A DNA stretch of 64,000 nt from Streptomyces sp. NBC_00390 (GTDB lineage Bacteria; Actinomycetota; Actinomycetes; Streptomycetales; Streptomycetaceae): contig NZ_CP107945.1 in the NCBI RefSeq assembly GCF_036057275.1, positions 7,874,001 to 7,938,000 of the forward strand, given 5' to 3'. Position numbers and translations under genes: made by a program. This document shows, piece after piece, positions 44,289-49,222 of this stretch. The number at the start of each line of letters is the position of its first letter. Within the stretch, counting starts at the first letter, position 1. The notes below the pieces were generated by a model, which made no database searches, was not told the DNA's origin, and saw nothing but the letters and a program-made list of their open reading frames with translations.

Positions 44289-44332
44289 CAGCAGTCGGCC
44301 TGCGCACCAGTTGGTGCGCAGGCCGACTGCTG
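44289..44332 (+). terminator. Perfect 21-bp hairpin terminator
   Basis: CAGCAGTCGGCCTGCGCACCA and its exact complement are separated by only GT, 15 bp after the methyltransferase stop. It is one of the longest perfect dyads in the window and marks the right part of the island. Confidence 0.78.
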
Positions 44333-44434
44333 CCTGAAGCACGTCGGGGTGGGGGTCCCGAGGCGAAACCTGTGTCGGTGAGCTCCGGAACGGTCATCTC
44401 CCGTGCGCCGGAGGTCAGAAGCAGCGAGCCGTAG

Positions 44435-46341: not shown

Positions 46342-46467
46342 CACCGGACACGTCCCCGAAACCGGCGTGCTGGGCCTTCCGTTCGGTCGGTGTCCAGGGA
46401 GGCGGGCGAAAACTCGGTGGGCGACGTGTGCGGGCTGGGCTACGGTCGACCCACAGGTTCATCTGCA

Positions 46468-46537
46468 CCTCCCGGTGCGCAGGCCGCGGTTACTTCTTTG
46501 AGATGAAAGCACCGCAGCCGTCATTGATCTCGGGAGG
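46468..46537 (+). ncRNA. yrlB: Bacterial Y RNA (Ro60-binding), short type
   Basis: A 70-nt RNA closed by CCTCCCG (46468-46474) / CGGGAGG (46531-46537). The conserved Ro60-binding strands follow: GGTGCGCAGG on the 5' side and TTGATCT on the 3' side. They compare with GGUCCGAAGG and UUGACC of animal Y RNAs. An inner stem GGC-C-GCGGT / ACCGC-A-GCC carries a 20-nt loop. It lies 185 bp before rsr on the same strand and 9 bp before the second Y RNA, so both are probably one transcript. A weak TACGGT -10-like element is at 46441. The symbol follows the bacterial Yrl naming. Confidence 0.8.
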
Positions 46538-46546
46538 CACAGCATC

Positions 46547-46686
46547 GGGTGCCCGGTGCGCAGGCGGGGGATACTTCCACTGTCAATGGGGTGGTCGCGG
46601 GTTCGAATCCCGCCGGGGGTCCCGGCCCCTGTAGCTCAGCGGTCAGAGCACCTTGTCTCCTCCACCGACCTTGATCTCGGGCACCC
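46547..46686 (+). ncRNA. yrlA: Bacterial Y RNA with permuted tRNA-like domain (YrlA type)
   Basis: A 140-nt RNA closed by GGGTGCCCG / CGGGCACCC (9 bp). It has the same Ro60-binding strands as the first RNA (GGTGCGCAGG; TTGATCT). Inside is a tRNA fold in permuted order. The T arm is GCGGG-TTCGAAT-CCCGC (46597-46613). The acceptor 3' strand CGGGGGT is joined by loop CCCG to the 5' strand GCCCCTG. Then come TA, the D arm GCTC-AGCGGTCA-GAGC (46634-46649), and an anticodon-like stem CCTTG / TGGGG that opens into the Y stem. This matches the described YrlA architecture and is not a real tRNA: it has no anticodon loop and no free acceptor end. Confidence 0.88.
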
Positions 46687-46698
46687 ACTGCTGAGCTT

Positions 46699-46720
46699 CC
46701 CCTCCGAGCGAGGGGTTTCT
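46699..46720 (+). promoter_or_regulatory. Hairpin overlapping the rsr ribosome-binding site
   Basis: CCCCTC-CGAGC-GAGGGG followed by TTTCTC and the rsr ATG at 46722. The right arm GAGGGG is also the best ribosome-binding site of rsr. The element could terminate the Y RNA transcript and, when transcribed through, hide the rsr ribosome-binding site. Confidence 0.6.
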
Positions 46721-46721
46721 C

Positions 46722-48419
46722 ATGTCCCGCTTCAACACCCGCGGCGCCCGCCCGGCCGCAAGCTCGCCCGTGACCACGACCGGGGAGCGGACCGTCACCC
46801 ACGAGGGAGCGACCGCCCACCTCCGCGACGCCAAGAGCGAACTCTTCCTGCTTGCGGTCTCCAACTTCGTCTCGCAGGACACCTTCTACGAGACCGGCGG
46901 CCGGCGCGACGACCGGTTCACCGCCCTCGTACGGCAGCTCGCCGCCGACGACCCCGCCTGGACCGCCGGCCTGCTCGGCTGGCTCCGCGGCGAGGGCAAC
47001 ATGCGCACCGCGGCGCTCGTCGGCGCCGCCGAGTTCGTCCATGCCCGGCTCGAGGCGGACCGTGCCGCCGCCCCTGGGCAGACTGCCGCCGAGGGAGCCC
47101 TGCCGTACTCGAACCGCGCCGTCATCGCGTCCGTGCTCCAGCGTGCCGACGAGCCGGGCGAGATGCTCGGCTACTGGACGTCCCGCCACGGCCGCCGGCT
47201 GCCGAAGCCCGTCAAGCGCGGTGTCGCCGACGCCCTCCAGCGCCTCTACGACGAGCGGTCGCTGCTGAAGTACGACACCGACTCCAAGGGCTTCCGCTTC
47301 GGCGACGTCCTCGAGCTCGTCCACGCCGCACCGAGCCCTGACCGGGCCTGGCAGGGGCCGCTGTTCAAGCACGCCCTGGACCGCCGCCACGGACGCGACG
47401 AGAGCATCCCGGAGCAGCTTGCGATGCTGCGCCGGCGCGCGAAGCTCATGTCGATGCCCGTGCCCGACCGGCGCGCGCTGCTCCGGGACCCGTGGGACCG
47501 GACGCTGCTCGACGACGCCGGCATGACCTGGGAGGCGCTGGCGGGCTGGGTGCAGGGTCCCCTGGACGCCGCGGCGTGGGAGGCGGTCATCCCGTCGATG
47601 GGGCTGATGGCGCTCGCCCGGAACCTGCGCAACTTCGACCAGGCCGGTGTCTGTGACGCCGTCGCCGCCACCGTCGCGTCGCGGTTCGCCGATGCCGGCC
47701 AGGTGCGCCGCTCGCGCATGTTCCCGTTCCGCTGGTGGGCCGCGTACAAGGCAGCGCCGTCACTGCGCTGGGCGCACGCACTCGAGCAGGCGATCGGGCA
47801 CTCGCTCGCCAACGTGCCCGCGCTGCACGGCCGGACGCTGATCCTGGTGGACCGGTCGCCGTCGATGTTCCCGGGATACGGCTACTCGACTCCGAACCGG
47901 TCGGACATCTCACTTGCGGAGCAGGCCGCCGTGTTCGGGTCAGCCCTTGCGATGCGCGCCGAGCGCCCGACCCTGGTCGAGTTCGGCCAGACCTCGAACG
48001 TCATGAGCGTCCCGAACGGCGGGAGCGTCCTGCGCCTGGTCGAGGCGTTCGGGCAGATCGGTGGCACTGACATCCCCTCGGCGGTGAAGAAGCACTTCGA
48101 CGGGCACGACCGCGTCGTCATCGTCACCGACGAGCAGACCCGGCCCGGCTGGCTGCCGTCGAACTGCTCCGGATACGGGGGGATGCGCGAGACGCAGATC
48201 GACGACCTCATCCCGGGGACGGTGCCGGTGTACATGTGGAACATGGCCGGCTACCGGGAGGCCGCGACGGCCTCCGGCGGCGGCAACCGGCACGCGCTGG
48301 GCGGCCTGACCGACGCGGCGTTCCGCATGATCCCGCTCCTGGACGCCGGTCGCGACGCCTCCTGGCCGTGGGAGCAGCAGGGGCCGAGCACAGGGTCCGA
48401 CGCCCGCCGGCAGAGCTGA
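46722..48419 (+). CDS. rsr: Ro60 orthologue (Rsr), TROVE and vWA domains
   Basis: A 565-residue RNA-binding ring protein. The TROVE HEAT-repeat ring (residues about 20-350) has VSNFVSQDTFYETGGRRDDR and WLRGEGNMRTAALVGAAEFV. A C-terminal von Willebrand A domain has the complete MIDAS motif LILVDRSPSM (DxSxS). Bacterial Rsr binds Y RNA, helps structured-RNA decay with PNPase and aids stress survival in Deinococcus. The Y RNAs immediately upstream are the expected partners. ATG 46722 is set by GAGGGG 7 bp before. Probably cytosolic. Confidence 0.93.
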   Translation: MSRFNTRGARPAASSPVTTTGERTVTHEGATAHLRDAKSELFLLAVSNFVSQDTFYETGGRRDDRFTALVRQLAADDPAWTAGLLGWLRGEGNMRTAALVGAAEFVHARLEADRAAAPGQTAAEGALPYSNRAVIASVLQRADEPGEMLGYWTSRHGRRLPKPVKRGVADALQRLYDERSLLKYDTDSKGFRFGDVLELVHAAPSPDRAWQGPLFKHALDRRHGRDESIPEQLAMLRRRAKLMSMPVPDRRALLRDPWDRTLLDDAGMTWEALAGWVQGPLDAAAWEAVIPSMGLMALARNLRNFDQAGVCDAVAATVASRFADAGQVRRSRMFPFRWWAAYKAAPSLRWAHALEQAIGHSLANVPALHGRTLILVDRSPSMFPGYGYSTPNRSDISLAEQAAVFGSALAMRAERPTLVEFGQTSNVMSVPNGGSVLRLVEAFGQIGGTDIPSAVKKHFDGHDRVVIVTDEQTRPGWLPSNCSGYGGMRETQIDDLIPGTVPVYMWNMAGYREAATASGGGNRHALGGLTDAAFRMIPLLDAGRDASWPWEQQGPSTGSDARRQS

Positions 48420-48517: not shown

Positions 48518-49222
48518 GTGACCTCCAAGAACATCCTGCTGTCCGGCATAGTCGGCTCCACCGCGTACGGCCTTGCCCGCGAAGGATCGGACGTGGACCG
48601 CCTCGGCGTGTTCGCCGCCCCGACCGAGGACCTCCACGGCCTCCACCCCCCGAAGGAGTCGCACGTCACGACCGCGCCGGACAGCACCCTCCACGAGGTC
48701 GCCAAATGGTGCCGGCTTGCCCTGCGCGGCAACCCCACCGTCAACGAACTCGTCTGGCTCCCCGATGAGCTGTACGAGGTGCGCACGCCGCTCGGTGACG
48801 AGCTGATCGGTCTCCGGGCGTCGCTGCTGTCCGCCAAGCGGGTCCGCGACGCCTATCTCGGATACGCCACCCAGCAGTTCAAACGGCTCTACGACCGGGG
48901 CGACGGCGCGCTCTGCGCCGACACCCGCAAGCGCACCGCCAAGCACGCCCGCCACCTCAAGCGCCTCTGCGGGCAGGGCTACGAGCTCTACGCCACCGGA
49001 CACCTGAGCATCCGCGTCGACGACCCCGACGAGTACTACCGGTTCGGTGAACAGGTCGCGGCGGACGCGATGGCCGCGCTGCCGCTGCTGCAGCACTACG
49101 AACAGGCCTTCGACGAGACGCGCAGCGCCCTGCCCGAGCAGGCCGACGAGGCGCCCGCCGAAGCGTGGCTGCGGCGTGTGCGCGCCCACTACTACGCGGT
49201 GGAGGGGCGGGAGGGGTCGTGA
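48518..49222 (+). CDS. RlaP-type nucleotidyltransferase (RNA repair associated)
   Basis: A 234-residue DNA-polymerase-beta-superfamily enzyme. The nucleotidyltransferase motif is GSTAYGLAREGSDVDRLGVF with the two catalytic aspartates in DVD. LALRGNPTVNELVWLPDELY and RVRDAYLGYATQQFKRLYDR continue the family (RlaP, also annotated YcgL-like). RlaP genes are linked to RNA ligase and Ro60 in RNA repair gene clusters. It probably adds or removes a nucleotide at RNA ends. GTG 48518 follows AGAGAGAGGCAGCT. No RtcB, RtcA or RNA ligase is in the window. Confidence 0.85.
   Translation: MTSKNILLSGIVGSTAYGLAREGSDVDRLGVFAAPTEDLHGLHPPKESHVTTAPDSTLHEVAKWCRLALRGNPTVNELVWLPDELYEVRTPLGDELIGLRASLLSAKRVRDAYLGYATQQFKRLYDRGDGALCADTRKRTAKHARHLKRLCGQGYELYATGHLSIRVDDPDEYYRFGEQVAADAMAALPLLQHYEQAFDETRSALPEQADEAPAEAWLRRVRAHYYAVEGREGS

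Follow-up and report, generated by a model that had tools for sequence, protein, structure and literature searches.

Bacterial Rsr/Y RNA pairs are already known. Actinobacteriophages carry 'Ro-like RNA binding protein' modules in which, for most phages examined, a Y RNA array lies 5' of the Ro-like gene; the phage proteins are 40-49% identical, and some of the phage mimics are annotated as tRNAs. In Deinococcus (D. radiodurans and the D. gobiensis plasmid locus L217), short units and tRNA-mimic units are also located 5' of Rsr. YrlA (RF02553), which occurs in Salmonella as rsr-yrlBA-rtcBA, in Mycobacterium smegmatis and in phages, lies next to Rsr and joins a Ro stem to a tRNA-like domain. According to PMC8394870 and PMC11472068, the domain of YrlA-type Y RNAs is circularly permuted and has D, T and acceptor arms.

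In this study, we analyzed a Streptomyces locus within a 64,000-nt stretch of DNA, referred to as the window. A preliminary description had pointed out two neighboring segments, 9 bp apart, with shared strands and a closing stem of their own, and all of these elements were recovered. The first, RNA1 (46468..46537, + strand), is a short Y RNA of 70 nt and of type B, recognized by its strands and closing stem. It has a Ro stem and a small UUC...GAA hairpin without a tRNA-like domain, and its fold z is -2.2. The second, RNA2 (46547..46686, + strand), is a long Y RNA of 140 nt and of type C, composed of a Ro stem and a permuted tRNA mimic. Both stand in tandem 5' of the Rsr gene, with the gap at 46538-46546. 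In RNA1, CCTCCCG (46468-46474) pairs with CGGGAGG (46531-46537), and in RNA2, GGGTGCCCG (46547-46555) pairs with CGGGCACCC (46678-46686). The Ro strand GGTGCGCAGG is found at 46474 and 46555, and TTGATCT precedes each 3' closing stem. Since the window contains GGTGCGCAGG at six places, compared with a mean of 0.9 in shuffled sequences, the short motif alone is weak, and the two copies in the window are no proof in themselves; the homologues supply the evidence and decide. Elsewhere in the window, a perfect 21-bp inverted repeat at 44290-44333 (CAGCAGTCGGCCTGCGCACCA / TGGTGCGCAGGCCGACTGCTG) contains the Ro-strand 10-mer in both arms. It is probably a two-way terminator, and its match to the Ro strand may be due to chance.

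We then examined the proposal that the closing stems covary while the Ro strands remain constant. From the Streptomyces upstream regions, 291 distinct units were selected by the two Ro strands only, and their closing stems were then scored. At least five of six closing pairs were formed in 268 units and all six in 208, whereas shuffled partners gave a mean of 67 and a maximum of 86. The strand-selected units contained 20 versions of the closing stem. In a background control of 359 kb, the strands picked eight segments, none of which (0/8) had a paired closing stem. The closing stem was nearly invariant inside each orthologous type, indicating that its covariation is mainly between tandem paralogues. 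A 42-pair structure was also scored on 23 diverse long units. In this alignment, 96.4% of cells were paired. Compensatory changes affected 21 pairs, whereas shuffling gave 12.1 and sliding the structure gave no more than 6; counted by cell, they numbered 112, compared with 30 in shuffles. A covariance model built from long-type units, from which the type of RNA1 was kept out, found RNA1 at 43.3 bits (E 9e-8). The model scored RNA2 at 142.7 bits, RNA2 itself being among the 23 training units. The two predicted RNAs have the sequence-level features of bacterial Y RNAs, namely a position adjoining Rsr, a stem formed by complementary ends and conserved Ro strands. The suggested identity of the segments as Y RNAs was supported by the conservation of the Ro strands, by the covarying stems and by a YrlA-type tRNA-like domain.

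The gene downstream (46722..48419, + strand) encodes a TROVE-vWA protein of 565 aa with the MIDAS motif DRSPS. It had been taken for a Ro60 orthologue, and Pfam, the PDB sequence search and the fold agreed on this. With a Pfam cut-off of 23 bits, the TROVE domain (PF05731) reached 42.8, and the PDB sequence search likewise pointed to a TROVE/Ro60 orthologue. The predicted model (mean pLDDT 78.6) gave low-E-value fold matches only to Ro60/Rsr structures, among them D. radiodurans Rsr (2nvo), Thermus phage Ro60 (9l5y) and animal Ro (1yvp). The protein has both the TROVE domain above the Pfam cut-off and the ring-plus-vWA fold of Rsr. Directly after it, an RlaP nucleotidyltransferase associated with RNA repair is encoded at 48518..49222 (+ strand; PF10127, E 3e-18). 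An RlaP homologue also adjoins the Rsr gene of a Gordonia phage. RlaP as a conserved partner of Rsr in Streptomyces was rejected because it was absent beside the other Streptomyces Rsr loci examined. No conserved gene was apparent downstream of Rsr, and RtcBA, unlike at the Salmonella YrlA locus, was not seen adjoining the Streptomyces array. In the Streptomyces phage Kela, an annotated RNA ligase gene is located directly 5' of the Ro-like gene (L211:1729-2481). These results confirm that the tandem Y RNAs and Rsr form a genuine Ro RNP locus of a known kind, and they support the preliminary interpretation of Y RNAs beside a Ro60 orthologue. That interpretation had missed the permuted tRNA and the anticodon-like arm in RNA2, the lack of this domain in RNA1, the three-RNA arrays and a detached pair.

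Along RNA2, a 17-nt arm and a 5-nt variable loop precede the T arm; the 3' half of the acceptor stem then passes through a short loop into the 5' half, and UA, the D arm and A26 follow. As read from the sequence, the predicted mimic corresponds to a tRNA opened at the junction of positions 26 and 27, with its acceptor end closed. The variable-loop equivalent UGGUC (44-48) at 46592..46596 is followed by a T-arm mimic, GCGGG-UUCGAAU-CCCGC (49-65), at 46597..46613. The acceptor-stem mimic (66-72 then 1-7) at 46614..46631 has its 3' half looped to its 5' half, without a CCA end, and the D-arm mimic GCUC-AGCGGUCA-GAGC with A26 lies at 46634..46650, all on the + strand. In the long-unit alignment, 100% of T-arm cells were paired with three compensatory pairs, and five of the seven acceptor pairs showed compensatory changes. 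Canonical T, acceptor and D geometry was found in 83/83 type A units, with all seven acceptor pairs in 80. The permuted T/acceptor/D domain typical of YrlA is present in RNA2 only, and RNA1 lacks it. A comparison with the YrlA model had been proposed as a check, and it held in part: RF02553 matched RNA2 at 39.4 bits (E 3.3e-6), under the gathering score of 69 bits, and RNA1 was not matched. RNA2 also differs from YrlA by an added anticodon-like arm between the Ro stem and the T arm. In the Rfam YrlA consensus, four bases separate the outer stem from the T arm and there is no such arm, and the published account of YrlA likewise lists D, T and acceptor arms only. The mimic is not organized as a tRNA gene, which has a free 3' CCA and a linear D-anticodon-T order; it is permuted, and its acceptor halves are joined by a loop.

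Origin of the mimics from a single tRNA isotype was rejected, since the tRNAs that match them best, at about 70% identity, are of several kinds (His, Met, Thr and Asn). The mimic of RNA2 was closest to tRNA-Asn (72%), tied with Thr. Side-by-side tRNA genes form the same topology at their junction, which makes partial loss of a tandem tRNA pair a natural origin by which the permutation may have arisen. Model hits in other classes and phyla were rejected as Y RNAs because they were mostly junctions of neighboring tRNA genes, and whole-genome counts from the Y RNA model are inflated by this artefact.

The anticodon-like arm of RNA2, UUCCA-CUGUCAA-UGGGG (27-43), is located at 46575..46591 (+ strand) with the triplet GUC at 46582-46584. 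Such a 5-bp/7-nt arm was found in more than 100 Streptomycetaceae relatives and in other genera. Phages of Gordonia and Streptomyces and a plasmid of Rhodococcus carry related arms. Among the actinobacteriophages, several have such arms, with loops that include CUUCUAA (VanLee), AUGAUAA (BRock) and CUGCUAA (Alone3). The spacing from the arm to the T stem, equivalent to the variable loop, was exactly 5 nt in 81/83 type A units. The predicted arm pairing is moderately supported, with 93% of cells paired and compensatory changes in two of the five pairs; in RNA2, the first two pairs are U-G. An alternative pairing of 29-33 with 42-46 was rejected, as 79% of cells were paired with essentially no covariation. 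ARAGORN called all un-permuted mimics (83/83), but it also called 398/415 (96%) with shuffled arms and was therefore dropped as evidence for the arm. The arm is absent from many type C units and from the D. gobiensis Y RNA, and UUCG-type tetraloops replace the anticodon-like loop in a few arms. The Deinococcus units have a UUC hairpin at the equivalent place, but it is a small UUCG-type loop and not an anticodon arm.

Changes in the loop were counted by parsimony over 132 units and 118 columns. U33 did not change in any of the 132 units. Positions 34, 35 and 36 changed 42, 33 and 23 times, compared with 5, 12 and 3 changes at positions 32, 37 and 38, and columns 34 and 35 were the fastest and second fastest of the 118. 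None of the 42 changes at position 34 was into A, whereas 34-36% were into A at unpaired control loop columns (p about 1e-8, a rough value since it is parsimony-based). Real tRNAs also avoid A34. The observed triplets, except for UUCG-like loops, were anticodons present in the same genome. The fixed U33, the absence of A34 and the rapid change at 34 and 35 indicate that the triplet varies widely yet by tRNA rules. Judged from these counts, loop letters without meaning would hardly give such variation. Most Streptomyces arms have U36-A37-A38; a strict rule of U36 in every arm, drawn from Streptomyces type A, failed in other genera (GUC, UCC, GUA). Several phage 'tRNAs' 5' of Ro-like genes overlap mimics, namely Arg-cct (L209:2269-2343), Ser-gct (L210:2274-2347), Arg-tct (L212:2204-2275) and Pro-tgg (L219:2245-2335), and these annotations are probably not real tRNAs.

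Of 394 genomes sampled from the genus, 213 gave a match to the Rsr protein, as did 35 named contigs that include Kitasatospora, Actinacidiphila, Streptantibioticus and Amycolatopsis. Among the Rsr upstream regions examined, 143/145 had one or more Y units, usually two or three, giving 303 distinct units in total. Three types were defined by the closing stem, in the order A-B-C-Rsr. Type A (GTCCAG, about 140 nt) has the tRNA mimic; type B, to which RNA1 belongs (CCTCCCG, about 75 nt), is usually without it; and type C, to which RNA2 belongs (GTGCCCG, usually about 145 nt), usually has it. By distinct sequence, types B, A and C numbered 115, 83 and 102 in 136 loci, and a class II (Leu/Ser-like) D arm was found in 27/103 type C units. 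Most Streptomyces loci differ from YrlA in that a short unit of the RNA1 type is accompanied by long mimics, giving two or three paralogues, each type with its own closing stem. A second Rsr gene, at 61% identity, is present in the same genome (L002, G000:C1:6498757-6500352), with its own B-type and long Y RNAs upstream, the latter closed by GACGCCTG. A detached pair, type B and type C with a class II mimic, is located between metK and priA (G000:C1:7011264-7011554; L252:1397-1660), and no TROVE gene was found within 1.5 kb of it. In 11 further Streptomyces genomes (L315-L325), one or more Y units occupy this site. In a literature search that did not cover Chen 2014 and Sim 2020, we found no prior description of the anticodon-bearing mimic, the multi-type arrays or the detached pair, and their priority is uncertain.

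We consider it most probable, at about 0.8, that this is a Ro RNP locus with two Rsr-bound Y RNAs in which the RNA2 mimic is an effector module for a tRNA-recognizing partner. The locus would make two Y RNAs, each bound at its lower stem by the ring of Rsr, the product of the neighboring gene. RNA1 would be a minimal Y RNA that may occupy or gate the ring, and the permuted mimic of RNA2 would bring the partner to Rsr or retain it there. Since the mimic displays an anticodon-like arm, the partner may read or cut anticodons. RNA surveillance tethered to Rsr, with the mimic as effector module, is the likely role.

A less likely alternative is a classic RYPER-like tether, in which PNPase or a different processing nuclease would be brought in by the T/D elbow of the mimic, the arm being only a common terminal hairpin whose letters have no meaning. 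Work on D. radiodurans has established such a PNPase tether (PMC4726728, PMC8394870), and RNA1-type units and the D. gobiensis Y RNA both have a hairpin started by UUC at the equivalent position. However, a meaningless loop would hardly exclude A34 in 42 changes, at the rough p given above, or keep U33, a 7-nt loop and a 5-nt variable loop.

A decoy that presents an anticodon is a plausible but rather doubtful alternative. The arm, held by Rsr, would mimic the substrate of anticodon-reading enzymes or of anticodon nucleases, the latter being host toxins or part of a phage-triggered defence, with an arms race over the triplet. The hypervariable triplet, flanked by a fixed U33 and without A34, and the prevalent U36-A37-A38 of Streptomyces arms are consistent with this. 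Phages rich in tRNA genes also carry Rsr and Y RNAs; beside Rsr, one of these phages has an RNA ligase and another an RlaP homologue. RlaP is the next gene here, although it is not kept beside Rsr in Streptomyces. The Salmonella tRNA-like domain was proposed as a competitive inhibitor of an anticodon nuclease, but YrlA was not cleaved in Salmonella (PMC7790460), and no nuclease was identified near the present locus. Slightly less doubtful, and still tentative, is the broader proposal that the complete mimic, with a triplet under diversifying selection that still keeps to tRNA rules, is a decoy or bait held by Rsr for anticodon-recognizing enzymes, and that the metK-priA set detached from Rsr acts in trans.

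On the 5' side of the array, TACGGT (46441..46446, + strand) is a candidate -10 element of the TANNNT form, put forward as such because a sigma-70 scan found no full promoter, and a TANNNT hexamer lies about 20-30 nt 5' of the first Y unit in nearly all of 18 relatives compared. On the 3' side, a terminator-like hairpin, CCCCTC-CGAGC-GAGGGG followed by TTT (46699..46715, + strand), overlies the Shine-Dalgarno sequence ahead of the Rsr start codon and is kept in most close relatives; the terminator scan found this one hairpin against 0.1 expected. The recurrence of both elements suggests that most transcripts would end 3' of the Y RNAs. The conserved hairpin over the Shine-Dalgarno site would fit an attenuator, with the units as a cis-acting leader of the mRNA for Rsr and not separate RNAs, but this reading is improbable. 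Detached units without a TROVE gene, and known bacterial Y RNAs acting in trans, argue against a leader, which may be an additional role and not an alternative. A real or degenerate tRNA-Asp gene, as called by ARAGORN at 46549-46623 within RNA2, is very improbable because the called acceptor overlaps the closing stem, the anticodon arm comes first and the T, acceptor and D arms after it, a permuted order in which they covary, and the genome has its own Asp tRNAs.

An anticodon arm whose triplet changes fast offers a direct experimental handle on the purpose of the tRNA-like domain of bacterial Y RNAs. The mimics explain tRNA genes, probably misannotated, that phages and bacteria have 5' of their Ro-like genes. 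With as many as three distinct Y RNAs at one locus and a detached pair besides, the Y RNAs of one cell would seem to divide the labor among them.
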